Positions 34,225 through 64,000 of a stretch of 64,000 nt of DNA are shown here, in pieces. The DNA comes from Deltaproteobacteria bacterium (GTDB lineage: Bacteria > Desulfobacterota > BSN033 > UBA1163), in assembly GCA_020059605.1 (NCBI GenBank), contig JAGVBT010000012.1:1-64000 (forward strand). Reading direction: 5' to 3'. A program made the position numbers and the translations under genes. The notes beneath the pieces were generated by a model. The model was given only the letters and a program-made list of their open reading frames with translations, did not search any database and had not been told where the DNA came from. The number at the start of each line of letters is the position of its first letter. Within the stretch, counting starts at the first letter, position 1.

Positions 34225-34971
34225 TCATTTCATCGGCCTCAGGCTCCAGATATAGAGGGTGATAGAATGAAGGTCCTTTTCATCGATTTTTCCTTCATAC
34301 CCGTGCATGTTCGGGACTCCCTTTGTAATCGCCTCTTTGATTTTGACCCGGTTGTCCATCCGTTTGATAAATCCCGGGGAATCCCATCCTGACGCGGACC
34401 TGCCTTTTCCTTCTTCTCCATGGCATTGATAACACCCATGTTTTCCTGCCAAATCCTTACCCATTTTAACCCTTTCAGCCACCCTGGCCATGATCATCTT
34501 TCTATCCGATCCCATATCAGAGAGGGTTCGGTTTAAGGCATCGTCGAAGTTGCCGATCGTTCCCCCATGTTTCTTTTGATATCTCTGCACATCTTCTCTT
34601 GACAAAAAGGCAATCTTGCCGATGGCCGTCATCACCCCTGGAATGTCGCTTCCAATGAGCCAGTGGGCCTTTCTGGCATCGATCCATCCTTTCGTTTCGT
34701 AATCCACGACCTCCCATCGATCGATCTCTGCGGGTCTCTTCTCATAGAATTGAGCGGCGCAAAAGATGCTGCATGTCTGGTCTTTCTTGCCATCAGAATA
34801 AGTGAGACGGTTACTCGTCTGATGATACATTTTGAGATTCATCCCGCACAGGGGACACCATTGGGGTTCCTCCTTGGCTTCGATATTGAAGGAGACGACA
34901 TGAAAGATGAGGATTCCAATGATCATGAAACCTGAAACGTTTGGCCAGCAGAGTTTCCTTTTTTTTCTCAT
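34225..34971 (-). CDS. NosL domain fused to a c-type cytochrome
   Basis: A 248-residue exported protein with two parts. Residues 36-140 are NosL-like, with CPLCGMNL (C39, C42, M44) and a second cysteine pair (CSIFC). Residues 170-248 are a small cytochrome c with the haem site CYQCH (180-184) and the axial methionine region NMHGYEGKIDEKDL. The combination suggests coupling of copper loading to electron transfer in the periplasm (inference). A membrane or signal segment covers residues 12-30. It lies between a TlpA-like gene and nosL. Confidence 0.8.
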   Translation of the reverse strand: MRKKRKLCWPNVSGFMIIGILIFHVVSFNIEAKEEPQWCPLCGMNLKMYHQTSNRLTYSDGKKDQTCSIFCAAQFYEKRPAEIDRWEVVDYETKGWIDARKAHWLIGSDIPGVMTAIGKIAFLSREDVQRYQKKHGGTIGNFDDALNRTLSDMGSDRKMIMARVAERVKMGKDLAGKHGCYQCHGEEGKGRSASGWDSPGFIKRMDNRVKIKEAITKGVPNMHGYEGKIDEKDLHSITLYIWSLRPMK

Positions 34972-42640: not shown

Positions 42641-42685
42641 GACAACCTCCTATTTTGTAAATCCGGAGCACAAAATCCAAAATTG

Positions 42686-42738
42686 TGTAACTCAAGGCTT
42701 CAGCCTTGACCAAGTCAACCCTGAAGGGTTGAGTTACA
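42686..42738. repeat. TGTAACTCAA-bounded palindromic repeat
   Basis: TGTAACTCAA (42686-42695) and TTGAGTTACA (42729-42738) are perfect 10-bp inverted repeats. The interior has ggcttcagcctt and aaccctgaagggtt palindromes. It resembles a REP-type unit distinct from the array at 20316. It lies between the oxidase and CCG-protein genes. Confidence 0.65.
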
Positions 42739-42767
42739 GCATTTCGTGCTTAAGATTTTATTTTTAA

Positions 42768-49400: not shown

Positions 49401-49943
49401 CATGAGCGTCTGGTAGTCCATCGTAAGATTTTTGAGCCCATGAGATTTTTCGAGCCCCATTTCGAGGCGTTCCCAGTCTCCAAGGGTGTCCTCTAATGTG
49501 GCTTTCGGAATTTCCACATAGTACTTTTTGACCGCCGGTTTCAACTCGATCTGTATTTCTTTAGCGGCCTTCCGGACGACCTGCTTTCCCATCCGGCTCT
49601 CTTCGGGGACGAAGACAATGACATCCCCCAGCACCTTTGCCTGGCAGGCCAAACGATAACCGCCGCGTTCCTGTTGCAAGCTGAAAAATTTTCTCTCGGT
49701 GGGCCCCATGGAAGAGAGGTGTTCCCGGCTCGATTCGATGCCGTATTTTTCAAAGAACCCCTGGTCAATTCTTACCTTGCATTTTCCGCAGATGGCTTTC
49801 TCGCCGCAGATCCCCTCGATATCCACTCCGAGCGCGACCGAAGCTTCCTTAAGCGTTTTTCCTTTCTCAACAAAACCCCTCCGACCCGAGGGTTGGAAAA
49901 TAACCATGCACTGGTCGGCTTTTTCTTTCTTTCCCTGCATCAT
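46491..49943 (-). CDS. Corrinoid activation protein (RACo-like) with an inserted GltD-like flavoprotein module
   Basis: A 1150-residue fusion. Residues 13-115 are a plant-type [2Fe-2S] ferredoxin (C46, C52, C55, C100). ASKHA ATPase sequence starts at AVDVGSTTVAGY (219-230), runs to about 350, and resumes at about 836 (IEAGFVGADN, IDIGTNGEL, KGICGSGIIDV) to the end. This is the DUF4445/RACo family, which re-reduces inactive Co(II) corrinoids using ATP. Between the halves sits a complete GltD-type module: six cysteines (C361, C365, C400, C404, C408, C412) for Fe-S clusters, an FAD loop GSGPAG (457-462), an NAD(P)H loop GGGNAA (585-590), the GVFAGGDV motif (723-730) and CLNCG (819-823). GLKIAPEA before and GIKIAPGA after look like a duplicated junction. 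Normal RACo proteins have about 600-650 residues. Confidence 0.88.
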   Translation of the reverse strand: MMQGKKEKADQCMVIFQPSGRRGFVEKGKTLKEASVALGVDIEGICGEKAICGKCKVRIDQGFFEKYGIESSREHLSSMGPTERKFFSLQQERGGYRLACQAKVLGDVIVFVPEESRMGKQVVRKAAKEIQIELKPAVKKYYVEIPKATLEDTLGDWERLEMGLEKSHGLKNLTMDYQTLMSLQEAVREGDWKVTVSVWHDKEVIKVEPGLVKKAYGLAVDVGSTTVAGYLCDLTDGKLVATASMMNPQVIYGEDVMSRISYTMTNPEGLEYMNKAIIDGLNGIVEEASAIAGIKRTDILDMTIVGNTCMHHLFLNIDPRNIGRAPFPPALHHSMDIKARDWGLKIAPEAETVEIGGYPPCQVACPAGISGQDFLYFIAQGKFDEALEEVRRAMPFAGVCGRVCTHPCEPECERSRVDAPLSIRALHRFVADHELKKGRPKTTPVEKTKEKKVAIIGSGPAGLACSYELVRRGYPVTVFESAPKAGGMLRYGIPDYRLPKEVLDDEIRYIEELGVEIKTDHPVNSLQGIWGQGYQAIFLATGAWVSETLDLPHEDAKGVSHALDLLRKVNSGEKVEAGNRVVVVGGGNAAVDAARVMKRLGAEEVLVVYRRSRDEMPAIKTEVDEAMKEGVHFNFLAAPVELLNLQGRIAGLRCIRMELGEPGEDGRRAPFPVKGSEFEMETDHLIVAIGQKVNGKGILEELGYSNPGTLTVDPVTLKTSMEGVFAGGDVVLGASDMISAIGAGQEAATSIELYLENIDLIKGRPAKLKKVEEIPIEGVDKEPRKELPLLEPEKRTGFTEVDPGFAAQLETAIEESKRCLNCGIYAEKGAAETGVSRDIGIKIAPGAYVHVLPIEAGFVGADNVGVLIAETPYFQDSIELIIDIGTNGELILGNRQKLISSSCATGPAFEGAEIRYGMRAAPGAIEKIVIDPETKDVRYKVIDREGWNTEMEEVGAKGICGSGIIDVVPQLFLAGIIDRTGRFKKDLKTPRSRENNGEPEFVIAWAKETSIGQDIVVCQSDVRAIQLAKGAMYAGSKIMMRHFGVEKVDKVILAGAFGSYIDKVSAAVLGLFPDCDLENIYSVGNAAGDGARMALLNVEKRKEADTWARRVNYLELTLEPGFDKIFAEAMWIPHMKDKFPHLAHLLPEKK

Positions 49944-50803: not shown

Positions 50804-51727
50804 TCATGGTTGATCGGACGGATTACCCAAGGCCATAAAAAAAAGTTCCCCGGTTCCCATCCTTCGAAAAATGACTCCTCGTTGATTCAGCCTGTCGGTC
50901 AATTCCTGGCCAAGAACTTCGGATAAATCTTTCGGCATGAACACGTCATGGGGGGATTGATCTAAAGGGATGGGCGTCTGTTGAGGGCGGAGGGGATGGT
51001 CGTCACTCAGAAGCAACGTTGGATCAAAGGGTTGGGTTCCATTGAGCCTGGCCATATGGTTCCCCACGATCAGCAGGTCATCAATGATCTCTCTCCTCGC
51101 CCCCACTCCGTCTCTTTGTTTTAAGCATTCGAGGATGGCCCGATGGGATTTGGTCACTTTATGATAGAATTCGGGTCCGAGGTTCAGGTTAAACTTAATA
51201 TCATTCAGAATATTATCGATAAAATCCATCACCAGTATCAGGATGGGGTTTTCGGTCATCCTGGCCAGGTAACGATGGAATCCTATCTCTCTGGCAACAA
51301 TGGTATGAGGGGTGGCCGGAATTTCCGTGATCATGCTCTCCAACTTAACAATGTCCTCCGGCAGGATGCGCGAGGCTGCAATCTGGGCAACAGGCGGCTC
51401 GAGCAAATAGCGGATCATGGTAATATCTCTGACGGAGATGGTCTTGAAGTGGAGAAAGTTGATGATGCTGTGGATCGTCGTCTTCATATCCACTTCTGCA
51501 ATAAAGACGCCGCCGGTGATTCCCTTTCGAATCTGCACTAACCCCATGCCTTCGAGTACCCTTAAAGATTCCCGCAGGGTGGCTTTACTGACGCCAAACT
51601 GCGACATGAGTTCCTTTTCAGAGGCCACTTTATCCCCCGGTTTAAACTGGCCCGACAGGATGGCATTTCTTATCTGCTCGATAATCTGGTCGGAAATCTT
51701 TAGCGTTTTGTTGGCAGTCTGAAACAA
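50804..51727 (-). CDS. GntR/FadR-family transcription regulator
   Basis: A 307-residue regulator. An N-terminal winged helix (QIIEQIRNAILSGQFKPGDK, then LMSQFGVSKATLRESLRVLE) is followed by an FCD-type helical ligand domain (residues 90-230) and an unusual extra C-terminal stretch of about 75 residues (from GTQPFDP onward) not needed for a FadR fold. The frame opens at TTG 51727 without a strong ribosome site. It is transcribed towards the corrinoid operon and probably controls it and itself. Its ligand would be the methylated substrate or a breakdown product (inference). Confidence 0.88.
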   Translation of the reverse strand: MFQTANKTLKISDQIIEQIRNAILSGQFKPGDKVASEKELMSQFGVSKATLRESLRVLEGMGLVQIRKGITGGVFIAEVDMKTTIHSIINFLHFKTISVRDITMIRYLLEPPVAQIAASRILPEDIVKLESMITEIPATPHTIVAREIGFHRYLARMTENPILILVMDFIDNILNDIKFNLNLGPEFYHKVTKSHRAILECLKQRDGVGARREIIDDLLIVGNHMARLNGTQPFDPTLLLSDDHPLRPQQTPIPLDQSPHDVFMPKDLSEVLGQELTDRLNQRGVIFRRMGTGELFFMALGNPSDQP

Positions 51728-51841: not shown

Positions 51842-52867
51842 TCATGGCGTTATATCAGCATTCCCTTGAATGGATATACTTTTTGAGGGTTGGTAAACAA
51901 TTCCAGTGATCTTATCTTCTTGAAAATCAAAAAGTTTCCTGTTTTCTCGCCCATCTTTTATGGTGACGGTGGGTCCATCAATGACCTTGCCAATCATGGA
52001 GGCCTTAATCTCCCTCCCCTGGAAGAGGTCAATGACCCGCTGGGACCGATCCGGGGCAACAGAGAGAACAAACCCGAAGCTCTGAAAGCAAACGAGCCAG
52101 TCCGAAAGTTCAATGTCAGGCGGTTTCGGGATGGAAGGCAGGTCGATGATAGCGCCCTTGCCGGAGTTTTCCATCATAATCGAAACCGTTCCCAGAATTC
52201 CTGCATTGCTCACATCCTTTGCGGCTTGAGCCCATTTTTTTTCAGCGAGGATGGGCAGGGCTTCCAGACGATACAGCAACTCTTCCGTTGTCTTTCCGGA
52301 GTTGGCATCCCAGCTCACCACGGAGTGGCACCCCTTATCGCCTTTGAGGTCTATGGCAAGAATGAGATCGTCTCCTACGTTTGCCAGATGACCCCTGAGC
52401 AGCTTATTGGCATGACCTAAAATAGCGACAGCCAATGAAGGAGAAGTGGCGGGTGCATCCGGGTGTAAGTGACCCCCCACCATGGGGACCCCCAGTTTGT
52501 TACAACCCTTCCTGATTCCTTCCACGACTTTTGATCGCTGCTCTTCCTCTCCGCTGGCGAGGACATTGACCATGGCCAGGGGTCTGCCACCCATGGAATA
52601 AATATCGTTGACCGTGACCATCACCGATGCTTTCCCGGCCGCATAGGGTTCGTTCACCAGCAACCTGGTCATGATGCCATCAGCGGCAAGAAGCAAGAAG
52701 CCATCTTTCCAGGGAATGATGGCCGCGTCGTCCCCAAAATTGGGCAACTGCGGTCCCGGCTGTCCTTGTAAAACCAGTTTATCGAAAACATCTTTAATGG
52801 GTTGTTTGCGCAATAACCCTTCGTAATTTCGAACTCTTTCAACAATCTGAGATAAGTTGATACTCAC
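51842..52867 (-). CDS. AIR-synthase-related protein (sll0787-like)
   Basis: A 341-residue PurM/SelD-superfamily protein. NFGDDAAIIPWKDGFLLLAA holds the metal-binding acidic residues of the ATP site, and VTVNDIYSMGGRPLAMVNVL is the dimer-interface motif. These proteins use ATP to activate oxygen atoms for displacement. A lone member beside radical SAM and GNAT sequence matches the sll0787-type subunit of the Nit1C cluster rather than purine synthesis. It follows the radical SAM-GNAT gene after 93 bases. Confidence 0.82.
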   Translation of the reverse strand: MSINLSQIVERVRNYEGLLRKQPIKDVFDKLVLQGQPGPQLPNFGDDAAIIPWKDGFLLLAADGIMTRLLVNEPYAAGKASVMVTVNDIYSMGGRPLAMVNVLASGEEEQRSKVVEGIRKGCNKLGVPMVGGHLHPDAPATSPSLAVAILGHANKLLRGHLANVGDDLILAIDLKGDKGCHSVVSWDANSGKTTEELLYRLEALPILAEKKWAQAAKDVSNAGILGTVSIMMENSGKGAIIDLPSIPKPPDIELSDWLVCFQSFGFVLSVAPDRSQRVIDLFQGREIKASMIGKVIDGPTVTIKDGRENRKLFDFQEDKITGIVYQPSKSISIQGNADITP

Positions 52868-52960: not shown

Positions 52961-54472
52961 TTAGTCGTCCAGGTTGGCTTCCATAAGCTGGTGGGGCTTA
53001 CCAAAATATTCTTTCACAGCCTCAATTGTTTTCCAACCAAGTTGAGAAAAAAAGGGAACATTTTCAACCTGGATGTGGGCCGTAAATTTAGTGCAGCTCT
53101 GGCTCTTAACGCAGCGCATCGCTTCCCGAACCAATAATTCGCCCGCGCCCGTATTTCTGAACCCTTTTCTCACGGCTAACCTTCCTCCGATCCAGTGGCC
53201 ATTTGCCTTGACAGGAAAGAGCCGGACCGTTCCAACGACCTGATGATCCAGTTCCGCTATCAAATGGATGCTCTTGGCATCATCCTCGTCGCAGTCCGAA
53301 TCTGGAAAGAGATTTTGCTCCTGGACAAAGACCTCCCTTCGAATTTCGAAGGCCTTCTGCTGTTCCGCACCGGTTCTGACAGGATGACAGATTAGGGGAT
53401 CTCTTTCTTGCTCATAGGCATGAAGGGCCGAACAGGCGCCGCAACGGACACAGCCGGCATGCGACCGACGGGCGGAAAGCCCCTTGCTCTTCAATATCAA
53501 GGAAACGGTCTCATAGAGGAACTTCATCGTTTCCGGATCAGGGGGCAGGGCATCTTCCATGAGAGAACCGGGGATGGGTCTCAATGGAATGATGAAAGGA
53601 TAGACACCGAGATCGGCTAAAAATTCGCTCCCCCGGATGACCGATTCTTTCTTTTCTCCGAGTCCTCCGATCAGGAAGCTGCTGACCTGATTGGGACCGA
53701 ACACCTCCACCGCGATCTTCCATGCTTCCTCATATTTTTTAAGACCCATGGCGGCTTTCGCCGGGGCCACCCGGGATAAGGTTTCAAGATCAAAGCTTTC
53801 AATATGAATTCCCACCGTATCCACTCCGGCGTCTTTCAACTCAACGTACATCTCAGGATCGGGGGAAGGGGTGAATTGGGCATGGATGGGCAAACCGGCG
53901 GCTTTTTTAATGGCTGCCGCACAACGCGCCAGATGGGAGATCTCCCGGTTGATGGGTCGAACGGTTCCGGTCGTTAAAACGATGTGCTGAATCGAATCGA
54001 GTTTTTTTGCTTTGGCCGCCACTTCGGCGATCTGTTCAGGGGTTTTGATCCTGATGGTTTGTCCGCTTTCATAGGACAGGTTGATTCCACAAAATAGGCA
54101 CTGTTTGTCCGTATGCCAGTGGGCACAGGTTTGGACGACCGTCGTGGCAAGACAGTCTTTCCCATGAAGAAGAGCAATTTGGGGATAGGAGATCCCATCC
54201 TCCGTCGAATCACTATAAAACGCCGGCCGCTCGACAAATTTCACGGAACGGAGCAATTTTCCATCCTTGAAAATGTGATATCTCCCGTCTTCTTCTTTTA
54301 AGAGGTAAGGGGATTCCAGAACATATCGGCTGCTCATCGGGAGAGAGACAGGAATCCCCTCGATGAGCAGGGTTCCGCCTTCGGCCGGGCCTGCCCCGCC
54401 TTTCCGGTTTAAGAGCTGTCTCTCAAAACGCAGGCCAAAGCTCTGAAGTTCTGTAATCAGATGGGGAATCAT
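52961..54472 (-). CDS. Radical SAM-GNAT fusion (MSMEG_0568/MSMEG_0567-like)
   Basis: A 503-residue two-domain protein. Residues 90-350 are a radical SAM barrel whose cluster cysteines are C116, C125 and C128 (C-x8-C-x2-C), not the usual C-x3-C-x2-C. A second cysteine group C341, C344, C347 ends this domain. Residues 360-503 are a GNAT acetyltransferase with LAVRKGFRNTGAGELLVREA as the acetyl-CoA loop. In the Nit1C cluster these are normally two adjacent genes; here they form one chain. It overlaps the Fe-S flavoprotein stop by four bases. No nitrilase is present in the window, so the pathway product is uncertain. Confidence 0.83.
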   Translation of the reverse strand: MIPHLITELQSFGLRFERQLLNRKGGAGPAEGGTLLIEGIPVSLPMSSRYVLESPYLLKEEDGRYHIFKDGKLLRSVKFVERPAFYSDSTEDGISYPQIALLHGKDCLATTVVQTCAHWHTDKQCLFCGINLSYESGQTIRIKTPEQIAEVAAKAKKLDSIQHIVLTTGTVRPINREISHLARCAAAIKKAAGLPIHAQFTPSPDPEMYVELKDAGVDTVGIHIESFDLETLSRVAPAKAAMGLKKYEEAWKIAVEVFGPNQVSSFLIGGLGEKKESVIRGSEFLADLGVYPFIIPLRPIPGSLMEDALPPDPETMKFLYETVSLILKSKGLSARRSHAGCVRCGACSALHAYEQERDPLICHPVRTGAEQQKAFEIRREVFVQEQNLFPDSDCDEDDAKSIHLIAELDHQVVGTVRLFPVKANGHWIGGRLAVRKGFRNTGAGELLVREAMRCVKSQSCTKFTAHIQVENVPFFSQLGWKTIEAVKEYFGKPHQLMEANLDD

Positions 54473-55068
54473 GATCCGTGCATTCTTGCGGCGACTTCCG
54501 ACACTCGCTTACCAAGGTTTCGCGCTGTTTCCAAACCCAAGCTGTCCTTTTCTATTCCATCCGGATGGCCGCTCCACAGGGCGGCCCCATAGTGTGAGGT
54601 TGGTTGGCCTTCGCTGACGACCACCATATCCTGGACTAACATCGCCGCCTGCACCGCCCGGATGGCGAGTTCCTGTCCCCCGTTTCGAACTCCGCCTACT
54701 GCGATGACACCGCCCACTTTATTGCGCAAAAGGAATCCATTTCTCCTGAACATGACGCAACGGTCAAGAAAAGCCTTGCACTGTGAGGTCATGGAGCCGA
54801 AATAAACAGGGGTCGCTACCACCAACCCCGCCAATTTTGGATCCGAAAGGATAGGAATCATCTTTAGGAAATCATCCTTTTGACTGCATTCTAAAACCTT
54901 TAAGCATTTCCCACAGGCAATGCACCCATTGATCTTCATTTCCGAAAGATCGATCAGAGTCGTTTCGACTTCAGGGGCAGCCACTTTTACCGCCTGGAGA
55001 CAAGTTTCCAATGCATAAAAGGTGGATTTCCCTTTACGGGGACTGCAGGCGATTCCAATGATCCTCAT
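54469..55068 (-). CDS. Iron-sulfur flavoprotein (Isf / NADPH-dependent FMN reductase family)
   Basis: A 199-residue flavodoxin-like protein. MRIIGIACSPRKGKSTFYAL is the FMN phosphate loop. CIACGKCLKVLEC (C-x2-C-x2-C-x5-C) is the compact [4Fe-4S] motif of archaeal and clostridial Isf proteins. VATPVYFGSMTSQCKAFLDR is the flavin-ring region. It overlaps the ABC ATPase gene by 35 bases and the radical SAM gene by four, so it is embedded in that operon and probably supplies electrons to one of its enzymes. Confidence 0.88.
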   Translation of the reverse strand: MRIIGIACSPRKGKSTFYALETCLQAVKVAAPEVETTLIDLSEMKINGCIACGKCLKVLECSQKDDFLKMIPILSDPKLAGLVVATPVYFGSMTSQCKAFLDRCVMFRRNGFLLRNKVGGVIAVGGVRNGGQELAIRAVQAAMLVQDMVVVSEGQPTSHYGAALWSGHPDGIEKDSLGLETARNLGKRVSEVAARMHGS

Positions 55069-55837
55069 CTCGAACCTCCTCCCTTTTCATCTCCTCTTCT
55101 AAAATTTTTAAAATATCTCTTCTGATATGGTTGCATACTTCGCCGGTGCGGTCCCTGGGCCTTGGAAACGCCACCTCAATCCGTTCAAGCATCCTGGCAG
55201 GCCTTCTGGAAAGGACGACAATCTCATCGCTCAGGAAAACGGCTTCTTCGACATTGTGCGTGACAAAGATGATGGTGTCGCCTCTTTTCAACCAGATCTT
55301 GAGGAGAAATTCCTGCATGGCATTGCGGGTCTGGCTATCGAGGGAACCGAACGGTTCGTCCATTAAAACGACACGGGGGTTCATGACCAGGGTTCTTGCA
55401 ATGGCCACCCTCTGCTTCATCCCGCCCGAAAGTTCCCGGGGATAGCGATGTTCAAATCCGTTTAAGTCAAAGGTCTTAATGTATTCCATGGCGATTGAAC
55501 GCCTCCTGACCTTATCCATTCCCCGGATCTCAAGTCCCATCTCAATGTTCTGGAGAGTCGTCCTCCAGGGAAAGAGCGCATATTCCTGAAAGACCATCCC
55601 CACATCTTCCGATCCCCGGACCATCTCCTTCCCGTCCAGAAGAACTTTTCCGACCGAGGCTTTTTCGAGTCCGGCAATGATCCTGAGAAGCGTCGTCTTT
55701 CCGCACCCGCTTGGCCCGATGAGGGAGACAAATCTTCCATTGTCAATCCGGTGCTGGAGCTGATCCAGGACGTGGACGCTCTCCCCCCGGCTCCCGCCTG
55801 AAAAGGTCTTGCTGAGGCCAAGAATTTCTAAACCCAA
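55034..55837 (-). CDS. ABC transporter ATPase (SsuB/TauB family)
   Basis: A 267-residue ATPase with GPSGCGKTTLLRIIAG (Walker A), ELSGGMKQRVAIARTL (signature) and VVLMDEPFGSLD (Walker B), typical of the nitrate/sulfonate/taurine group. The C-terminal VAFPRPRDRTGEV is common to SsuB-type ATPases. It pairs with the permease and binding protein encoded just upstream. Ligand candidates include nitriles, cyanate, sulfonates or thiamine precursors; neighbouring Nit1C-like genes favour a nitrogenous small molecule (inference). Confidence 0.92.
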   Translation of the reverse strand: MGLEILGLSKTFSGGSRGESVHVLDQLQHRIDNGRFVSLIGPSGCGKTTLLRIIAGLEKASVGKVLLDGKEMVRGSEDVGMVFQEYALFPWRTTLQNIEMGLEIRGMDKVRRRSIAMEYIKTFDLNGFEHRYPRELSGGMKQRVAIARTLVMNPRVVLMDEPFGSLDSQTRNAMQEFLLKIWLKRGDTIIFVTHNVEEAVFLSDEIVVLSRRPARMLERIEVAFPRPRDRTGEVCNHIRRDILKILEEEMKREEVRDEDHWNRLQSP

Positions 55838-55858: not shown

Positions 55859-56617
55859 TTAACCCCTCCACCGGAGGACCCTTGACTCAAATGTCCTTAA
55901 GCCCGCATTGATCAAGAGGCCGATCAATCCGATGACCAGCATGCCCGCTAAGATTTGATCCGGCCTCTGGATGTCCCGGGCCGTCATGATCATGTAGCCC
56001 ACGCCGTACCCTTCCTTCACCCCCGTGAATTCAGCTGCCACCAGCGTCATCCAGCCAATGCCGATTCCAATCCGCATTCCTACAAAAATCGATGGGATGG
56101 ATCCGGGGAGCAGCACCTTGAGAAAGATTTTCTTCTCTGTGGCATGCAGGGTTCTTGCGGCCTCAACCAGAATGGGGTTGATCGAGAGGACCCCGGCGAT
56201 CGTATTCAAAAGAATCGGGAAGAAGGCGCCCAGAAAGATGATAAAGGCCGCTGATTGGATGCCTATCCCAAACCATACGATGGCAATGGGAATCCAGGCC
56301 AGGGGAGGAATGGGTCTGACAAGTTCGATGAGAGGGTTTATCATCCTCCGGATGCGTGGGGACCATCCCATCAACAATCCCAGGGGGATGGCCAGCAAAG
56401 CTGCTACCCCATAGCCTAATCCAACGCGATAAAGGCTGTAGAGCACATGTTTATGGAGAAGGTTTCCGGGAGGCATTCCAATCCACAGGAGATCTTTCAG
56501 CCCCAGAAGAATTGCAATCGGCGAAGGAAGCTTATAATCGGGTATCCAGTATAGAGATGACAACCCCTGCCAGATCAAAATCAGTAACAGCGGCAGGAGG
56601 TAACTCTCCTTTTTCAT
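55859..56617 (-). CDS. ABC transporter permease (SsuC/TauC family)
   Basis: A 252-residue membrane protein with six helices. RPIPPLAWIPIAIVWFGIG and the EAARTLHATEKKIFLKVLLP coupling loop are family signatures. It overlaps the binding-protein stop by four bases and precedes the ATPase gene by 21. Confidence 0.92.
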   Translation of the reverse strand: MKKESYLLPLLLILIWQGLSSLYWIPDYKLPSPIAILLGLKDLLWIGMPPGNLLHKHVLYSLYRVGLGYGVAALLAIPLGLLMGWSPRIRRMINPLIELVRPIPPLAWIPIAIVWFGIGIQSAAFIIFLGAFFPILLNTIAGVLSINPILVEAARTLHATEKKIFLKVLLPGSIPSIFVGMRIGIGIGWMTLVAAEFTGVKEGYGVGYMIMTARDIQRPDQILAGMLVIGLIGLLINAGLRTFESRVLRWRG

Positions 56618-57564
56618 CTCTTGATAACCTCTTTCAGGATCTCGGTCCTTATCAGCCGGTCAAGAAAATCTGGAGTATCCTCCACCCTGATATATTTGAG
56701 TCTGGTAAGAAATTCAATGTATTCCCTGATTTCACCCACGCTTGGAACGTAGGTAAAATGAACGTTCTCCATGGCTAACCGGATGGTCCCGTCATCCATC
56801 CCCGTGTATTTGATGGCAATCTGGATGGCCTCCTCCCGGTGACGTTGGATAAAATCGGTCGCCGCCACATGACCGCGGACGACGGCCTTCACCTTCTGAG
56901 GATGGGTTTCGAGAAATCCACTATCCGCTACCAGGCCACAACAGGGATGGGCCTTCCAGATGTCCCGGGAGTGGGCCAACACTCTTCCGACTCCTATGGT
57001 TTGGGCTTTGGCAGGGTGGGGCTCCCAGGCGATGAAGGCATCAATCTGACCGGTTCTCAATGCCCCTATCATCTCCGGAGGTTTTAGGACGATCGTCTTG
57101 ACCTGATCCGCCTGAATATTGTGTTTGATGAAGGCCTTCCGCAGGAGAAAATCCTGAACCGTGGCATGTCCCGGGATGGCCACCCCTTTGCCAACCAGGT
57201 CCGGAAGGGTATGGAGCTTTCCGTCTTTTCTCACCACAATGGCCGACCCCTCGGTGTTCACCTGGGCCAAAATCGCCACCCTAACCGTCCGGTTGGCCAG
57301 GGCTGTGATCGTTGGGGCATTTCCAACAAAACCCATGTCAAGGGATCCGGCGGTAAAAGCGCTCATCATCTCCGGGCCCGCCTTGAAAATACCGGCCACC
57401 TCAACACGAACCCCCTCTTTTTCAAAGAGCCCTTTCTCCATTGCCACCCAGAGAGGGAGATGATGGATATCGCTCTGAAGATAGGCGATCCGAACTGGCT
57501 GGGAAAGGGCGTCTCCGGTAAACAAGAAAAAAAAGGATAGGAGCAGAAAAACGATTTTTTTCAT
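56614..57564 (-). CDS. ABC transporter substrate-binding protein (SsuA/NMT1 family)
   Basis: A 316-residue periplasmic binding protein. The signal peptide ends near GDALSQ. VRIAYLQSDIHHLPLWVAME and AFTAGSLDMGFVGNAPTI are landmarks of the SsuA/TauA/NMT1-like group. Helix residues contacting small anionic ligands are present, but the ligand cannot be named. It is the first gene of a leftward unit: binding protein, permease, ATPase, Isf, radical SAM-GNAT, AIR-synthase-like. Confidence 0.9.
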   Translation of the reverse strand: MKKIVFLLLSFFFLFTGDALSQPVRIAYLQSDIHHLPLWVAMEKGLFEKEGVRVEVAGIFKAGPEMMSAFTAGSLDMGFVGNAPTITALANRTVRVAILAQVNTEGSAIVVRKDGKLHTLPDLVGKGVAIPGHATVQDFLLRKAFIKHNIQADQVKTIVLKPPEMIGALRTGQIDAFIAWEPHPAKAQTIGVGRVLAHSRDIWKAHPCCGLVADSGFLETHPQKVKAVVRGHVAATDFIQRHREEAIQIAIKYTGMDDGTIRLAMENVHFTYVPSVGEIREYIEFLTRLKYIRVEDTPDFLDRLIRTEILKEVIKR

Positions 57565-57620: not shown

Positions 57621-59435
57621 TCAATTCTCTTTTGTCTCTTCGTCTTTGACCATTCTTGCGGAGGGCAGACCCATTGCCAGGGCGACCAGCTCAACGAGAT
57701 CTCTCATCCGGATGGGAGAACCCATGGACATGATTTCTTTCTGCAGTCCCTGGTAACAGAAAGGGCAAGCGCTGACCAGGTCGGTGGCACCGGTAAGTTC
57801 GGCATCTCTTACTCGCTCCCTTGTCATCTTTTGCTGGATTTCCGGAAACCCTGCCTTCAGTCCCCCTCCAGCGCCACAACACCTGGAGTTTTCCCTGATT
57901 CTTTCCATTTCAATGAATTCAACCCCTGCTTCCGAAAGGGCGGTGAGAACTTTTCTCGGGATATCATATTCACCGCTTGCCCTTCCCAGATGGCATGGAT
58001 CATGGTAGGTTACCTTGATGTTCAATTTTTTCCGAAAGGTTATCTTCCCCGCTTCGATGAGTCTCAAGAGCAGAGTGGCAAAGGGGATGACTTCGAAATT
58101 TAATGCTTCGACCTTGGGGTAGTCCTGCTTGATGGTTTTAAAGCACCCTGCGCAGGAAGTGACCAGGGTCTTGATCCCGTATTGATGGAAGAGCCGGATA
58201 TTCTCCGAGGCGATTCTTTCAAATTCCTTATCCCCCATCCTCAAGAGAACACTCCCGCAACATTTCTCCTGGTTTGCCAGAAAACCCCAATCCAATTCGA
58301 GGGTGTTCAGGATGTTCGTCGTATTGATGGCGATTTCCCTCAAATTTGCATCGAACGAAGCGGTGCAGCCCACAAAGTAAAGAATTTCTGTTCCTTCCTT
58401 GATCTCCCTGGGGGGCGCGATCAGGGTCTTCTCTTTTTTGCCCGCTCTCGCCCAGTGAGCCCGGCTTGACCTGGGTTGACCCCAGGGATTGTCATAAGCC
58501 TTCGTGTTTTTGACCAGAAGGGCCTGGTTTTCCAGGGGGCCGAAACCGAGATCAACGATGCAGCGCCGGATGCCCTCCCACATTTCAACGGTGTCGATTC
58601 TCGATGGACAGACGAAGTGGCATTGACCGCAGGTGCTGCACTCATAAAGACTCTTGGTAAACTCTTTCAGCGCCTCAGGGTCCACAGGATTGCAATCAAA
58701 GAAAACAGCGTTGGGACCGTGCTGGGCCTCGACCATCTTTTTGAAATCAGCGATTTTTTTCCGGGGAGTGATGGCCTCCCGCTCATCTTGAAGATAGACC
58801 GGACACCACGTGACACACTCTCCGCAACTCGTGCACGCATCCAGTTCCATCAACCGGAGTTGATCCAGGTCCTGGATGGGGATCTTGGGCAAATCCACTG
58901 AATCAAGAATCTTTTTCCTGGCTTGAATGCTCCACACCACCAATCCTAAAAAGATCCAGAAACCCCCGAGGAAGAGAAGGCGGAGGATCGTATAACGAAC
59001 GGGACGGGTATCCGGGAGTGTGGCCACATAATCCAGGACCCGATCGACCTGGGCCTCCGACAATTTCTCCTTGAACGCGGGCTGGGAAAGGGTCGAATCC
59101 GTCCCCTCCACTTTGGACCCCTTCAGGACCAATTCCTTGATGATCTTTCGGTTCCAGGCCTCACCGAAGGTATCGGTGGTTATTGCGAGTTTGATGGAAC
59201 CCGTATTGAGAGAAGGGATCGTTCGGCTTGCAGGGTTCTTGGCGCCGAAATTTCCCTGTCCCCCTATGCCCAACTCCCCGTGACACCGGAGGCAATGTTC
59301 CCGGTAAAGCTTTTCGCCGGGAGGCATTTCAGGCTTCTCCGTGGCGGAACTGCCTTCGGCAAAGAGCATGGGAGCAAGAAGGATGCCCAAGAAGAGAACG
59401 ATCCAAAGAGATGGATTGTAGCGGAACGTTTTCAT
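57621..59435 (-). CDS. Cytochrome c-HdrD-like chimera (haem c, membrane helix, 2x[4Fe-4S], 2x CCG)
   Basis: A 604-residue protein. A signal or anchor helix (10-27) is followed by a monohaem cytochrome c with CLRCH (48-52), a membrane helix (148-170), two cluster motifs (C201, C204, C207, C211 and C266, C269, C272, C276) and two CCG domains (CCGSVLLRMGD with SCAGCF, CCGAGGGL with CPFCYQ). The haem domain should face the periplasm and the HdrD-like part the cytoplasm. ATG 59435 is chosen over 59657 because a signal sequence begins there and AGGAGAG precedes it. It follows the cytochrome b genes by five bases. It probably links quinone-pool electrons to a thiol or disulfide type substrate. Confidence 0.88.
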   Translation of the reverse strand: MKTFRYNPSLWIVLFLGILLAPMLFAEGSSATEKPEMPPGEKLYREHCLRCHGELGIGGQGNFGAKNPASRTIPSLNTGSIKLAITTDTFGEAWNRKIIKELVLKGSKVEGTDSTLSQPAFKEKLSEAQVDRVLDYVATLPDTRPVRYTILRLLFLGGFWIFLGLVVWSIQARKKILDSVDLPKIPIQDLDQLRLMELDACTSCGECVTWCPVYLQDEREAITPRKKIADFKKMVEAQHGPNAVFFDCNPVDPEALKEFTKSLYECSTCGQCHFVCPSRIDTVEMWEGIRRCIVDLGFGPLENQALLVKNTKAYDNPWGQPRSSRAHWARAGKKEKTLIAPPREIKEGTEILYFVGCTASFDANLREIAINTTNILNTLELDWGFLANQEKCCGSVLLRMGDKEFERIASENIRLFHQYGIKTLVTSCAGCFKTIKQDYPKVEALNFEVIPFATLLLRLIEAGKITFRKKLNIKVTYHDPCHLGRASGEYDIPRKVLTALSEAGVEFIEMERIRENSRCCGAGGGLKAGFPEIQQKMTRERVRDAELTGATDLVSACPFCYQGLQKEIMSMGSPIRMRDLVELVALAMGLPSARMVKDEETKEN

Positions 59436-59440
59436 AGCAG

Positions 59441-59827
59441 TTACTCTCCTAAGACGGCCCAGAAGCTCAAAATAAAAAGAAGAAGAAGGGCCACCACGCC
59501 AATCCAGATCAGCCGGCGATGATCCCGGAAACTGCGGATCTCTTTTGTGTCCACAAAGGGTAAAAGGATTAAGGCTCCGGCGATGAGGAAGGGAACCAGC
59601 ACCCCGATCGCCGGGGGGACCAGTTTCATCACCTGAAAGAGCCAGAGAAAATACCATTCCGGATTGATCGTGGAGGGAGTAACCAGGGGGTTCGCCATCT
59701 CTTCGTAACCGATGGGGAGCACGACCGCAAGGGTGACCACCACTCCGATGATGAATACAAAGAGGATGAGCTCCTTGAAAAATTGGTCCGGATAGAAGGT
59801 GAGTTTTCTTTTTTTCCTTTCCTCCAT
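59441..59827 (-). CDS. Cytochrome b C-terminal subunit (PetD-like)
   Basis: A 128-residue membrane protein with three helices. NPEWYFLWLFQVMKL holds the PEWY quinol-oxidation motif. Split cytochrome b (b6 plus subunit IV) is typical of bc complexes in these bacteria. It lies 10 bases after the b6-like gene and five before the cytochrome c-HdrD-like gene. Confidence 0.92.
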   Translation of the reverse strand: MEERKKRKLTFYPDQFFKELILFVFIIGVVVTLAVVLPIGYEEMANPLVTPSTINPEWYFLWLFQVMKLVPPAIGVLVPFLIAGALILLPFVDTKEIRSFRDHRRLIWIGVVALLLLFILSFWAVLGE

Positions 59828-59837
59828 GCGCCGCTCC

Positions 59838-60500
59838 TTAAAAAGGCTCCTTGACGCCCTGACGCCGGATCATGAAAAAATGGGCGATGAGCAAACCAAT
59901 GAGCAAGATGGGGAGAACGATCACATGGGAAACATAAAAACGGATGATCGTCGGCTGTTTGACTCCGTACCCCCCCTGAAGAAAAATCATGAGGTATTCG
60001 CCGATCAAGGGAATCTCGCTGGCCATTCCCGTTCCGATCCGGGTCGCCCAGTACCCCCTCTGGTCCCAGGTCAATAAATATCCTGTAAAGGAGAAGGCAA
60101 AACATAGCAGGAGGAGAAAGACTCCGCTGACCCAGGTCATCTCCCGGGGGGGTTTGTAAGCGCCGCGAAAGAAGACGATCAACGTGTGGACCGCGACGGT
60201 GACGATGATCAGATAGCTGGCATAATGGTGGATCCCCCGGATCAACCAACCCAGGTGAACCTGATCCGTAATGAAGACAATGCTCTGGAATGCGCCTTTT
60301 ACGCTGGGCTGGTAGTAGTAGGCGAGAAAGATCCCTGTGGCCAGTTCGATCACGATGAGCGCAAAGGTCATGCCTCCCCAGCAGAATCTGACCTTCTGTT
60401 TATAGTCCGTCACCTCGGTATCCAGAATGGGGGTTAAGACTTCCTTTAGATCCCATCTCTTTTCAGCCCACCGGGATAGTTTCGATGTCCAACTCGCCAT
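59838..60500 (-). CDS. Cytochrome b6-like subunit
   Basis: A 220-residue haem-b protein with four helices. GIHHYASYLIIVTVAVHTLIVF and the SHVIVLPILLIGLLIAHFFM region supply the paired axial histidines (one pair per two helices). It follows the Rieske gene by two bases. With the PetD-like and Rieske subunits it makes a quinol-oxidising complex. Confidence 0.93.
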   Translation of the reverse strand: MASWTSKLSRWAEKRWDLKEVLTPILDTEVTDYKQKVRFCWGGMTFALIVIELATGIFLAYYYQPSVKGAFQSIVFITDQVHLGWLIRGIHHYASYLIIVTVAVHTLIVFFRGAYKPPREMTWVSGVFLLLLCFAFSFTGYLLTWDQRGYWATRIGTGMASEIPLIGEYLMIFLQGGYGVKQPTIIRFYVSHVIVLPILLIGLLIAHFFMIRRQGVKEPF

Positions 60501-60502
60501 GT

Positions 60503-61027
60503 CTATACTCCACTGATCATTGTAATCCGGAACCAGGAAGGGTATCCATGGAGCTTCTCTTCCGGAAGTCTCACTGAAATCATTTCCCCTTCCACCTTGA
60601 GATCGAAGGGGAGAAGAGCGTCTTTCAGGGGTCCTTTGACCACTTTCCCACTCTTATCGAAAATCGCATCATGACAGGGACAGAGGAAGGTTTTCTTCTT
60701 CTCGTCCCATTGGATAATACAACCGAGATGCGGACAGACCGCGGAGAAGACGCGGAGTCCGAGCTCTTCCTTCATCAACAGGATGGGAAGGCCAAAATAG
60801 ACTTTCGAGAGGCTCAGGGCCTCCTTAAACTCAGAGAGGTTTCCCACCACCTGCCAACCCCCCACCTTCTTCAATGCGCTGCGGGGAGGGGTCAGGAAGG
60901 CGATGGTGGATGAAAAGACTGCCCCCAATCCAAAGAGGCCAAGAAAGGCCGTGATGAACTTCAGGAGCTTTCTGCGAGAAAACGAGGAGGTTGGATTTTC
61001 TTTGTCGATCGCCTTCTTTTCATCCAT
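60503..61027 (-). CDS. Rieske [2Fe-2S] protein
   Basis: A 174-residue subunit. FSRRKLLKFITAFLGLFGLG is a Tat-type signal anchor. Cluster ligands are C98 and H100 in CPHLGC and C116 and H119 in CPCHDAIF; C103 and C118 form the usual disulfide. ATG 61027 has GGGAGAAG upstream. An open frame extends to 61078 into the preceding gene but is less likely used. Confidence 0.93.
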   Translation of the reverse strand: MDEKKAIDKENPTSSFSRRKLLKFITAFLGLFGLGAVFSSTIAFLTPPRSALKKVGGWQVVGNLSEFKEALSLSKVYFGLPILLMKEELGLRVFSAVCPHLGCIIQWDEKKKTFLCPCHDAIFDKSGKVVKGPLKDALLPFDLKVEGEMISVRLPEEKLHGYPSWFRITMISGV

Positions 61028-61044
61028 GGATGCTTCTCCCTTTC

Positions 61045-61935
61045 CTATCTTCTCGAAACCGTTGCGGTTACAGGGCAAGTGACAATATGGACGAATTTGC
61101 TATACGGGACATAAGCGATGAAAGCAAATGCGAGGAGAAAGTGAAAATTCCACATGTAAAAATGAAAGGTGGTCCAATTCAGGGGCAATTCGCGAAATAA
61201 CAGGGCCAGAGTAAATCCAACGAAAGAAGCGCTGTGCTTCATGGAAAAAGGAAGCACCGCGATCCTGAAGGCCTCCAACAAGAAACCGGTGACCACAATC
61301 AAAAAGATGAAGAGCAAGGCGACATGATCCTTGATCTCCGTCTTCAGTTGAGGGAGCTTGAACACATATCTCCTCAACGCGGAAAGGACGACGCCCGCAA
61401 GAATGCTCAATCCCAAGAAGTCCATCAGGAAATCCAGAGCCCTTCCTCCAAGGGATGGGATCCCAAAGGTCCTTACATCGAAGAGGATGGCGATTCCATA
61501 AACAAATAACATCAGTATCAACAAAGCGGTAAACCCCATCGAAAGCATCATGTAATTTGCCCACCGAAGAAGATTCAACCGGAGAATGCCTCTTTGCAAC
61601 AGGGCATCTGCAAACAGAAACCGAAAGATGTTCTTCTTCTTTGTCGGCCAATTTTTTTTCCCTTTCCTCCAGATCCATACCTTCGTCGCCATGCCGTAAG
61701 AAAAAATCACCATGGAGACTCCGAAGGCTCCCCACATGAAAACCCATTTGTACACACTTTCCGCTTCATAGAAGCTTTTGCCGGGGTAGGCATGATCCAT
61801 ATGACAGTGAATACATAAGACTCGGGGTTCCTTCTTAAATTCTTTCATATAGTCGACGGTTGCGTCAACAGATAATCCGAGCGGCGTCAGGATGAGCATC
61901 GCGGTGAATACGACCCACACGGCGTTTCGAAACAT
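61045..61935 (-). CDS. NarI/DsrM-like membrane cytochrome with N-terminal haem c site
   Basis: A 296-residue protein. A signal segment (1-20) is followed by CIHCH (41-45), a c-type haem motif, and five or more helices of the nitrate-reductase gamma (NarI) type with histidines in WTTFHFYMWNFHFLLAF. DsrM/HdrE-like proteins of this kind exchange electrons between the quinone pool and CCG-domain partners. It is the first gene of the Rieske/cytochrome b/HdrD-like operon, 17 bases before the Rieske gene. Confidence 0.83.
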   Translation of the reverse strand: MFRNAVWVVFTAMLILTPLGLSVDATVDYMKEFKKEPRVLCIHCHMDHAYPGKSFYEAESVYKWVFMWGAFGVSMVIFSYGMATKVWIWRKGKKNWPTKKKNIFRFLFADALLQRGILRLNLLRWANYMMLSMGFTALLILMLFVYGIAILFDVRTFGIPSLGGRALDFLMDFLGLSILAGVVLSALRRYVFKLPQLKTEIKDHVALLFIFLIVVTGFLLEAFRIAVLPFSMKHSASFVGFTLALLFRELPLNWTTFHFYMWNFHFLLAFAFIAYVPYSKFVHIVTCPVTATVSRR

Positions 61936-61966: not shown

Positions 61967-63190
61967 TCAGGCTTGCGCCCTGACCGTTTCCGTCCTCTTG
62001 GCTCTAAAATAAATCGTTAAGAAATCAGAGGCGACCTTCTTTAAAAGTAAAAAAAGATCTTCGGCCAATCCATTTGTGCTTTGAGCCCGATCATGCTCTT
62101 TTTTCATCGTCCTCAGGAGACCGGTCGTTTCCTTGAGACGGTTTATCATCCCCTTTTGATCTTCAGGGGTAACGTCCACTCCTTCTCCTGATTCCAAATA
62201 GTTCAATCGCCTCCATAGAGCCTCTAAAAACACTCGAATTTTTTCCGGCTCATACCATTTATTGCCGATCATCCACCGAATAGGCAGCATTTCCAGTCCG
62301 AAGGCCACCATCCGTGAATGGCTCAGTTCTCTTCTCCATTCTTCAAAAAAAGACTGCCCGGTCTTTGAGGAAGGTGGTTCCGGTCGAAAAGAACGCGTTG
62401 CCCTGTTCTTTCCCTCCCTGAGAATGATCCGGGCAAGGATGCCGTTGGCCTCGGGATAGTTGGGATGTTCAAAGTGAGGCCCGAAGATATAGAGATAACC
62501 CTTTCCCATCCGTTTTCGTGACGCGGCAATGTTTCCATGTAGGGTCTTCTCCGCCAGGTCTTCCCGGACAAGGAATTTTGTCTTTTCCGTAAAACCCCGG
62601 TAGGTGGCAATGGCCTGCATATCCTCCGAGGGCAACATCGATGGGCCCCCATAAAGAGGGGCGATCACCTTTTTGCTGCCATTGGCTTGATGCCCTCCCT
62701 CCATCTCCAGAAGAACGTCCTCCCTCGCCACATGATAAACAAACTCACAACCGTAGGGGGTGCAGGCGTGTTCCTGGAAGAGCCCACGTTCGGATTCTGA
62801 AAGCCTTCGTGAAATATTGGAGATTTTTACATTAATCCAATTGAATTGATTCAGGAATGCCATGGAGGACCTCAGCGGAAGATAAGCTCCGGCACAGGTG
62901 CCGATATACAGCCCTCCCTCTTCGATGAAATGTTTCAACCTCCTCGACCCCTCGGCGCCAAGACTGCGTGCCATCGCAAAGGTGTCTCCCCCGGACATCA
63001 TTAAGGAATCCACGCCCTCCAGAGCGCCGATGAGGATCTCTTTTTCATTGATAAAACGGACATCGTTCAACCCCCACTGATCCAGGAGGTCAACGAACCA
63101 GAGCCAGGAATGAGAAGCGCCTGCCCCCACAAAGATTCCTATCTTAGGAGGAGATAAAGGTGGATTCGGGGATGAAGGGAATTCCTTCAT
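61967..63190 (-). CDS. GATase1-like protein (BPL_N-type)
   Basis: A 407-residue cytoplasmic protein. Residues 15-250 form a class I glutamine amidotransferase-like fold: MMSGGDTFAMARSL and GTCAGAYLPL, with a nucleophile-elbow cysteine, as in the biotin-protein-ligase N-terminal-like family. Residues 270-407 are helical and not recognised. It overlaps the AOR-like gene by four bases (ATGA), so the two are coupled. Function unknown; a role in cofactor or protein modification is possible. Confidence 0.72.
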   Translation of the reverse strand: MKEFPSSPNPPLSPPKIGIFVGAGASHSWLWFVDLLDQWGLNDVRFINEKEILIGALEGVDSLMMSGGDTFAMARSLGAEGSRRLKHFIEEGGLYIGTCAGAYLPLRSSMAFLNQFNWINVKISNISRRLSESERGLFQEHACTPYGCEFVYHVAREDVLLEMEGGHQANGSKKVIAPLYGGPSMLPSEDMQAIATYRGFTEKTKFLVREDLAEKTLHGNIAASRKRMGKGYLYIFGPHFEHPNYPEANGILARIILREGKNRATRSFRPEPPSSKTGQSFFEEWRRELSHSRMVAFGLEMLPIRWMIGNKWYEPEKIRVFLEALWRRLNYLESGEGVDVTPEDQKGMINRLKETTGLLRTMKKEHDRAQSTNGLAEDLFLLLKKVASDFLTIYFRAKRTETVRAQA

Positions 63191-64000
63191 TTTAAAATAT
63201 CTCCCACCACCTGTTCGAGGGTTTCTGGAGTGAACTCTAATCCCGTCCCCATCGTTGCAAGCTCCAATAGTTTTTCCTCGGTTAATTCAGGGGACATCAG
63301 GGCAAAGATCGGATGGATGCCAAAAATGTAAGCCATGGCTTGCCTTCTTTTCCACCAATCGGCAGTTTGACTGCCGTCCGGGGAGAGAGCAAAATCGGCA
63401 AACATCGGCGCTGGGGGCGCCCAGGGACTAAAAGGTTCTTTTGATAAATGTTCCAGGGGACCCTTCACATCGCCGAAGGACCGCTTGATTTCTTCCAATT
63501 GCGTCATACCGGCCTTTTGGTTCAACTCGGCAACGGCGACCGCGTCAATCCCCGCTCTTGCACATTCCCTCAGCAACGCAGAGGAGTCTTGGGCCGACAA
63601 ACCCATTTTGTTAAAACCCAATAGGCCATAAACATCCGTGATCAAAAAACCAGGCTCATTCTTCTCGCTCTCCTTCAGATGTTTTGGATCCTCATCAAGA
63701 AAGACAAACGTGTTGGTAGGGAAGGGGGTGTTGAAACAGGACAGATGCCTGTGGATGATCGGCTCCAGCCATTTTCGTATGTCCTCTCCCATCTCAGCGG
63801 AGAGCTCCGCAATCCCTTGCTTTCCTGCAAACGGTCCATTCTTGACGGCCAGAAGCAGTTCCTTGCATGCCTGGACAAATCCCTCGGGATCGGCGATTTC
63901 CAGAAGACTCATTCCTCTTAAAGCAACCGATTTCAGTTTCTTCCGGCCGAAGAGTTTGCCAAACCCCCATCGATCGCCACTTGCCCAATAGTTGATGCAG
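63187..64000 (-). CDS. AOR-like protein without cluster cysteines (partial, 5' end outside window)
   Basis: The open frame runs off the window end, so the ATG at 63912 is probably internal. The upstream residues read DRWGFGKLFGRKKLKSVALR, matching the AOR landmark GMGAVMGSKNLKAVAVRG. Further on, LGFNKMGLSAQDSSALLREC and LLELATMGTGLEFTPETLEQ align with the middle and C-terminal AOR landmarks. Where AOR has CFGCPAHC and a late cysteine (LGFCRF), this protein shows GFLITDVY and FGIHPIF. All visible cluster ligands are therefore missing. The protein is also shortened. It is coupled to the GATase1-like gene. Function unknown. Confidence 0.6.
   Translation of the reverse strand, partial: CINYWASGDRWGFGKLFGRKKLKSVALRGMSLLEIADPEGFVQACKELLLAVKNGPFAGKQGIAELSAEMGEDIRKWLEPIIHRHLSCFNTPFPTNTFVFLDEDPKHLKESEKNEPGFLITDVYGLLGFNKMGLSAQDSSALLRECARAGIDAVAVAELNQKAGMTQLEEIKRSFGDVKGPLEHLSKEPFSPWAPPAPMFADFALSPDGSQTADWWKRRQAMAYIFGIHPIFALMSPELTEEKLLELATMGTGLEFTPETLEQVVGDILK

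Follow-up and report, generated by a model that had tools for sequence, protein, structure and literature searches.

The window described here, 64,000 nucleotides from the start of contig JAGVBT010000012.1 (C89 below) of a deltaproteobacterial genome of the Desulfobacterota (GCA_020059605.1), carries five adjacent genes on its reverse strand (61935-57621). Sequence comparison and structure prediction show, or strongly imply, that these genes encode a single b6f-type Rieske/cytochrome b complex in which the cytochrome c is covalently joined, through one transmembrane helix, to a cytoplasmic HdrD protein, and in which a NarI-fold subunit with one haem c is the third membrane partner. Rieske/cytochrome b complexes are normally read as periplasm-facing quinol:cytochrome c oxidoreductases. 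Each part belongs to a known kind. A b6f-type complex joined to HdrD both covalently and within a conserved operon was not described in the open-licence papers searched, which is not proof of absence. The arrangement suggests that a cytoplasmic reaction is linked to an energy-conserving membrane chain in a manner not described before.

The five-gene operon and its products

In the direction of transcription the operon comprises genes for a NarI-fold membrane subunit (61045..61935; 296 aa; Pfam Nitrate_red_gam, 3e-7), a Rieske [2Fe-2S] protein (60503..61027; 174 aa; Rieske, 5e-13), cytochrome b6 (59838..60500; 220 aa; Cytochrome_B, 4e-47), subunit IV (59441..59827; 128 aa; Cytochrom_B_C, 1e-14) and a cytochrome c–transmembrane helix–HdrD chimera (57621..59435; 604 aa; Cytochrome_CBB3, 7e-8; Fer4_8, 2e-10; two CCG domains, 1e-31), the parts of each protein having been identified by Pfam and NCBIfam profile searches. 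The gaps between successive genes are 17, 2, 10 and 5 bases, and the GGAG-type ribosome site of the chimera gene sits inside the 3′ end of the subunit IV gene. A first-pass annotation of this DNA had described five genes within 4.3 kb separated by 2–17 bases: every open reading frame lies where it was placed and the genes do form one conserved operon, although the unit proves to be wider, a co-directional cluster extending from C89:64882 to 51842. Neither this cluster nor the exchange of membrane modules in relatives figured in that annotation.

The five-gene order recurs across the phylum. In a survey of 395 genomes drawn evenly from it, the full-length chimera was found in nine: four in the window's own family (G000, G013-G015), three in family f13 and two in family f33, which class-wide searches place in three classes. 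The classes holding f13 and f33 are represented in the collection by three and two genomes, and the chimera is present in all five. At every locus the order NarI – Rieske – b6 – IV – chimera is kept as far as the contig reaches, and its retention in nine genomes rules out an assembly artefact or a chance adjacency.

The AlphaFold2 model of the chimera (32 sequences; mean predicted local distance difference test score 81.5) shows a signal helix (residues 8-24), a less certain haem c domain (~36-143), a transmembrane helix (~149-178; 58902..58991) and a confident HdrD domain (~190-590). The haem c motif, CLRCH (residues 48-52; 59280..59294), lies in the N-terminal part, which is separated from the HdrD part in the prediction by that single helix; the helix is followed by a K/R-rich stretch (QARKK). 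Model and basic residues together bear out the earlier proposal that the protein crosses the membrane once. As in b6f complexes, the N-terminal part provides a haem c subunit on the positive side of the membrane, anchored by a C-terminal transmembrane helix. The axial-Met region of this cytochrome reads SMPAF or SMPGF in f13 and f33, and SQPAF or SQPTF in the window's family, where the expected axial Met is therefore gone.

The HdrD part carries two [4Fe-4S] ferredoxin-type sites (C201/204/207/211 and C266/269/272/276; 58608..58835) and two CCG domains (C357, C392 C393, C428, C431, 58143..58367; C481, C519 C520, C557, C560, 57756..57995). None of these 18 cysteines, which make up the two four-Cys ferredoxin sites and a complete C-CC-CxxC set in each CCG domain, varies among 32 sequences. 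The first CCG domain reads CxGC (CAGC in the window) in the chimera and its orthologues, the same as in HdrB, whereas the HdrD paralogues of the electron-transfer flavoprotein (ETF) type in the window's genome (703- and 723-aa frames) carry CPHC. In EtfD the His of the CxHC pattern ligates cluster D2, and the first CCG reads CTG (PMC13083937). Because CxGC is shared with HdrB, and CPHC is the pattern of the ETF-type paralogues, the site reads as Hdr-type, not ETF-type. The Hdr-like character claimed at first pass thus holds, with the full C-CC-CxxC in both CCG domains and without the EtfD-type CxHC His.

A Foldseek search with the HdrD part returned Mycobacterium smegmatis EtfD (9ojn) as best match (E 3.5e-21) and HdrB next. 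Identity as an ETF:menaquinone oxidoreductase was nevertheless rejected, the protein having no CxHC and the NarI and HdrD parts not forming one chain. The NCBIfam equivalogs DsrK, TmcB, TfrB and GlpC were rejected with scores of 82/400, 103/735, 200/385 and 91/278 bits, all below the curated cut-offs, as was HdrB, whose curated cut-off the chimera also fails to reach. Another haem c–HdrD fusion is found in the window's genome: a 723-aa frame (L015; G000:C5:97458-98618) combines an N-terminal CXXCH, a NarI domain and an ETF-type HdrD (CPHC).

The Rieske protein of the window has an RR motif, an N-terminal transmembrane anchor and the ligands CPHLGC and CPCH, which are present in all Rieske sequences of chimera-type loci. 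In box 2 the window's family has CPCHDA.F and the other sequences have CPCHDS.F, so that Tyr is replaced by Phe throughout, and Ser by Ala only in the window's family. In known Rieske proteins Ser and Tyr raise the potential (PMC12954380). Cytochrome b6 has the four His, for two haems b, of a four-helix b6-type cytochrome (pairs 91(92)/105 and 192/207, spacing 14 and 15), conserved in nine of nine sequences. Its Cys40 (codon 60381-60383) occupies the ligand position of haem cN (ci), and the corresponding motif, [FH]C[WF]GG, is found in all eight b6 sequences that reach it, the ninth ending with its contig. Subunit IV is encoded by a separate gene, as in b6f complexes, with a PEWY motif in the window and PEWY or AEWY across the sequences. 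Given a Rieske protein without Tyr and (in the window's family) without Ser, and a cytochrome c that in the same family is without Met, the periplasmic arm looks low-potential and matched to menaquinone.

The NarI-fold subunit is modelled with five transmembrane helices, and its structure matches EtfD and then NarI. One periplasmic CXXCH lies at the N-terminal end (61801-61815). In EtfD haem b is bound by His78/His241, the helix-2 His being paired with the last helix-5 His (PMC13083937), and the spacing of this pair matches the positions in the NarI-fold subunit; HdrE and NarI have two His in helix 2 and two ligands (His or His/Met) in helix 5 (PMC9478090). Helix 5 of the NarI-fold subunit retains both, His265 and His283 being invariant in the sequences compared, whereas helix 2 has none in the seven Rieske-type sequences: the haem-b His position of NarI/HdrE/EtfD-type proteins is occupied in the window by Tyr128 (codon 61552-61554). 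Tyr stands there in seven of seven Rieske-type sequences and Phe in the relative L078 (see below), while the His is present in 20 NarI sequences of type B, type C (also below) and archaeal origin. Either haem b has been lost from this subunit, or its ligation has changed. The label 'NarI/DsrM-like haem protein' given at first pass consequently stands for the haem-c motif and not for the helix-2 haem-b His. Because that His is lost in every Rieske-type member, the subunit, judged by its sequence, is not an intact DsrM/HdrE, and it is questionable whether electrons cross the membrane by the usual DsrM/NarI haem-b path.

HdrDE and DsrMK likewise place a NarI-fold membrane protein beside a two-ferredoxin, two-CCG protein with the full C-CC-CxxC. 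They differ from the present system, in which helix 2 is without His, HdrD is fused to a haem c and a transmembrane helix, the Rieske, b6 and IV genes lie in between, and scores remain under the DsrK and HdrB cut-offs. EtfD (DUF224 type; 9ojn, PMC13083937) is the structure that the HdrD part and the NarI-like subunit both resemble most, but it is one fused chain; here there are two chains with three genes between them, Tyr in place of His78, CxGC, and CC in each of the CCG domains, and no gene of the cluster was recognised as an ETF gene.

Relatives, membrane modules and precedents

A cytochrome b6 search recovered the nine chimera genomes at identities of at least 51% and nothing else above 50%. 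Where the flanks of the next b6 relatives were read, no HdrD was found within 1.5 kb, and several of these relatives stand beside a nonahaem cytochrome. Such ordinary Desulfobacterota complexes share the Rieske, b6 and IV subunits (b6 identity up to 50%), but have no HdrD or NarI partner in the flanks read, and a multihaem cytochrome alone serves as their third redox subunit wherever this was read.

An HdrD orthologue occurs in 22 further genomes of the phylum, with the same cluster neighbours as far as the contigs reach. In these HdrD is without cytochrome c, Rieske genes are absent and the membrane part varies from type to type. In type B, a decahaem DmsE-family cytochrome and a b561 protein go with a NarI domain that has seven CXXCH in front of it; in type C, NarI stands by itself; in type D (L078, G097), a one-haem NarI is accompanied by a Phs/Qrc-like molybdopterin protein, a TtrB/DsrO-like Fe-S protein, an NrfD/DsrP-like protein and a multihaem cytochrome. 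At L078:10151-15849 (G097) the Phs/Qrc-like molybdenum, Fe-S, NrfD-like and multihaem genes stand in the place of the Rieske genes. Outside the phylum, the matches listed in one genome scan include at least two loci in archaeal metagenome-assembled genomes with the order BPL_N – NarI – HdrD and no Rieske genes adjacent; the plasmid collection gave no match.

Since the same NarI–HdrD core is found with other membrane modules in 22 genomes, HdrD and the NarI-fold protein make up the core, to which the Rieske/b6 set is added as one option among several interchangeable membrane modules. The comparison shows, or strongly implies, that the five-gene unit is the Rieske version of an HdrED-like (NarI + HdrD) unit within a conserved pathway cluster. 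The modules (decahaem c plus b561, Phs/Qrc-like, Rieske, none) form a natural series in which the fit between a cytoplasmic thiol reaction and different respiratory chains can be studied.

The NarI tree unites the Rieske type as one clade (support 100/99). The HdrD tree places its members as a grade, L078 falling next to f13, but the approximately unbiased (AU) test did not reject a single clade (p-AU 0.288). One origin of the Rieske type is the simplest reading of these sequences; multiple independent origins were rejected on the union in the NarI tree and the outcome of the AU test.

The nearest precedent is provided by the anammox complexes Kuste4569-4574 and Kustd1480-1485 (PMC12954380). 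Like the complex described here, they combine a four-helix b6-like cytochrome b with haem cN, a subunit-IV-like protein and a Rieske protein; their c-type haems lie on the positive side, an Fe-S oxidoreductase is added in the cytoplasm, and they belong to unusual anaerobes. They differ in having a cytoplasmic FAD/NAD(P) oxidoreductase and a separate multihaem c subunit (PMC12954380), whereas here Pfam finds no FAD/NAD domain in the five operon proteins, HdrD is fused to a mono-haem cytochrome c, a NarI-fold subunit is added, and the Rieske protein of the window's family is without Ser/Tyr. An electron route via haem cN and the Qn site to the cytoplasmic NAD(P) module has been proposed for the anammox complexes (PMC12954380). 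The covalent cytochrome c–Hdr link would be a second case, beside anammox, of a bc-type complex wired to cytoplasmic redox chemistry.

Proposed electron flow through the complex

We tentatively favour a menaquinone-linked path in which electrons pass from a cytoplasmic Hdr-type site outward, with a Q-cycle, in one particle; outward is, on our analysis, the most likely direction. HdrD would be reduced in the cytoplasm by a two-electron donor that the cluster produces or consumes, a thiol/disulfide couple being most likely because the CCG sites are Hdr-type. From there electrons would reach menaquinone at the cytoplasmic side, by way of either the NarI-fold subunit or haem cN/Qn in cytochrome b6. 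With Tyr in place of the helix-2 His in the NarI-like subunit, the N-side of cytochrome b6 would be a junction at least as good. Menaquinol would then be oxidised by the Rieske arm, which would deliver the electrons to the two periplasmic haems c while protons are translocated in a Q-cycle, and the cytochrome c–HdrD fusion would keep menaquinone reduction and menaquinol oxidation in one particle. DmsE-family decahaem cytochromes usually point outward, and the presence of one in the membrane module of relatives supports this direction. So do the potentials: with CoM-S-S-CoB at -143 mV and menaquinone at -80 mV (PMC4683180), transfer from thiol to menaquinone is downhill for the CoM/CoB couple and the reverse uphill, which favours flow from cytoplasm to quinone to periplasm.

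Several points weigh against this path. The structure models are of single chains. Helix-5 His283 is invariant, so that haem ligation by His/Tyr could still let electrons pass through the NarI-like subunit. No terminal oxidase or dsrA is common to the nine Rieske-type genomes, which leaves outward flow without an obvious conserved sink. Full-length dsrA was found in 12 of 12 genomes with a multihaem module (types B and D), in one of the nine Rieske-type genomes and in none of the ten with the bare pair (Fisher p 4e-5 and 2e-6), although these groups are clades or nearly so and kinship confounds the test. Haem-copper oxidases above cut-off occur in the window's genome and G015, and in no other Rieske-type genome. 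Since neither is common to all nine, a terminal oxidase or a sulfate-reduction partner as the defining sink was rejected. In G014, the only Rieske-type genome with dsrA over cut-off, the gene is on the same 19.9-kb contig as the chimera (C251; L002).

Quinone-based bifurcation on the anammox pattern is an alternative that we consider unlikely. Menaquinol would be split at Qo, one electron passing via Rieske and haem c to a periplasmic acceptor, while the other would travel over the b haems and haem cN to HdrD in the cytoplasm and from there to a low-potential acceptor. Such bifurcation has been proposed for the anammox Rieske/b6 complexes with their cytoplasmic Fe-S NAD(P) oxidoreductase (PMC12954380), and the haem cN Cys of b6, the Fe-S module tethered in the cytoplasm and the lost haem-b ligand of the NarI-like subunit are all consistent with it. 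However, the anammox Rieske protein lies above +300 mV (PMC12954380), whereas here every sequence has Phe for Tyr, and those of the window's family also have Ala for Ser; with that family's cytochrome c also without Met, little drive would be left for the low-potential branch. For the window's own family, then, the apparently low potential of the Rieske protein speaks against strong bifurcation. Direct electron exchange between the cytoplasmic side of b6 (haem cN) and an Hdr thiol/disulfide site that the cytochrome c subunit tethers to the complex, with quinone bifurcation or confurcation and with the NarI-fold protein converted from a haem-b conductor to a haem-c docking subunit, is a proposal to which we likewise give a small chance.

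Reverse electron transport seems less probable still. Here a cytoplasmic donor of relatively high potential would feed HdrD, the haems c, Rieske and b6 in turn, and menaquinone would be reduced at the expense of the proton-motive force. Most Rieske-type genomes are without dsrA and haem-copper oxidases, as expected of syntrophic or fermenting anaerobes, the periplasmic arm is apparently low-potential, and the L078 module is Phs/Qrc-like; Qrc reduces menaquinone. Such transport nonetheless needs a path from the cytoplasmic HdrD to the periplasmic haems, while the bis-His haem b site of the NarI-like subunit is lost, and ETF-type donors are unlikely with CxHC absent.

The first-pass annotation had inferred that quinol oxidation may be linked across the membrane with a cytoplasmic thiol/disulfide or related couple. 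In this direction the Rieske complex would oxidise menaquinol and HdrD would reduce a cytoplasmic disulfide. The topology fits, both CCG sites are Hdr-type, and methanogen HdrDE runs in this sense, reducing heterodisulfide with methanophenazine. For the known Hdr couple, however, the reaction is uphill (-80 versus -143 mV) even before proton translocation, the opposite direction being easier (PMC4683180), and the presumed route through the membrane has lost its haem ligand in helix 2; we regard this direction as improbable. Mere tethering, in which the Rieske part is an ordinary menaquinol:cytochrome c oxidoreductase, HdrD and the NarI-like protein act separately via the menaquinone pool and the fusion fixes stoichiometry or location only, is very improbable: the NarI–HdrD core does occur without Rieske genes in 22 genomes, one subset without any haem c, but fusion and order are kept across three classes, and the Rieske-form NarI-like subunit is without the haem-b His kept by its free-standing relatives, unlike an independent EtfD/HdrE-type quinone reductase.

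The surrounding cluster and other redox genes

The five genes are embedded in a conserved co-directional cluster of ~13 genes, from a ferredoxin gene (C89:64882) to an AIR synthase gene (51842), all on the reverse strand. It starts beyond the window end with a two-cluster ferredoxin (C89:64520-64882), followed by a conserved short AOR-like protein (63187..64000, to C89:64506 outside the window; = L045:8188-9507). The latter has AFOR_N alone, while the genome matches AFOR_C in 14 other places. The next gene encodes a BPL_N amidotransferase-like protein (61967..63190), a conserved partner that also lies beside NarI–HdrD in two archaeal loci.

On the other side of the operon the conserved cluster continues with an SsuA-family substrate-binding protein (56614..57564), a permease (55859..56617) and an ATPase (55034..55837) of an ATP-binding cassette (ABC) importer, a FMN_red/WrbA-like flavoprotein with a Cys cluster (54469..55068), which is conserved in part of the clusters, an MSMEG_0568-family radical SAM protein fused to an MSMEG_0567-type GNAT (52961..54472) and an AIR-synthase-like protein of the sll0787/methanogenesis marker 2 type (51842..52867). 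This last protein scores 300/365 bits for methanogenesis marker 2 and 298/321 bits for sll0787, both below cut-off. A GntR-type regulator (50804..51727, reverse strand) recurs at the edge of the cluster. A ~240-aa protein without Pfam or NCBIfam match is encoded between the HdrD and ABC genes at L001:9916-10632 and in L002, L003, L005, L007, L088, L092 and L097; it was not found in the window's own cluster.

The radical SAM–GNAT and AIR-synthase-like genes match families of Nit1C-type clusters (MSMEG_0568 radical SAM, MSMEG_0567 GNAT, sll0787 AIR synthase). In contrast to these, no nitrilase was recognised in the present cluster, where the genes accompany the HdrD complex, an ABC importer, BPL_N and an AOR-like protein. 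No description of an AOR–HdrD–AIR synthase cluster was found in open-licence papers, which is again not proof of absence.

The window contains further redox genes. A 1150-aa RACo/RamA-type corrinoid activator (46491-49943, reverse strand) has a GltD-like module (Fer4_20 + Pyr_redox_2) between the RACo middle and C-terminal domains, as if an NAD(P)H-linked reduction had been built into it. A second HdrD-like two-CCG protein (41327-42640) lies beside a GlcD-like FAD oxidase (42768-44252; reverse strand), and this pair (41327-44252) adjoins an ABC transporter of the branched-chain amino-acid type. At 34225-34971 (reverse strand) a NosL domain is fused to a cytochrome c domain.

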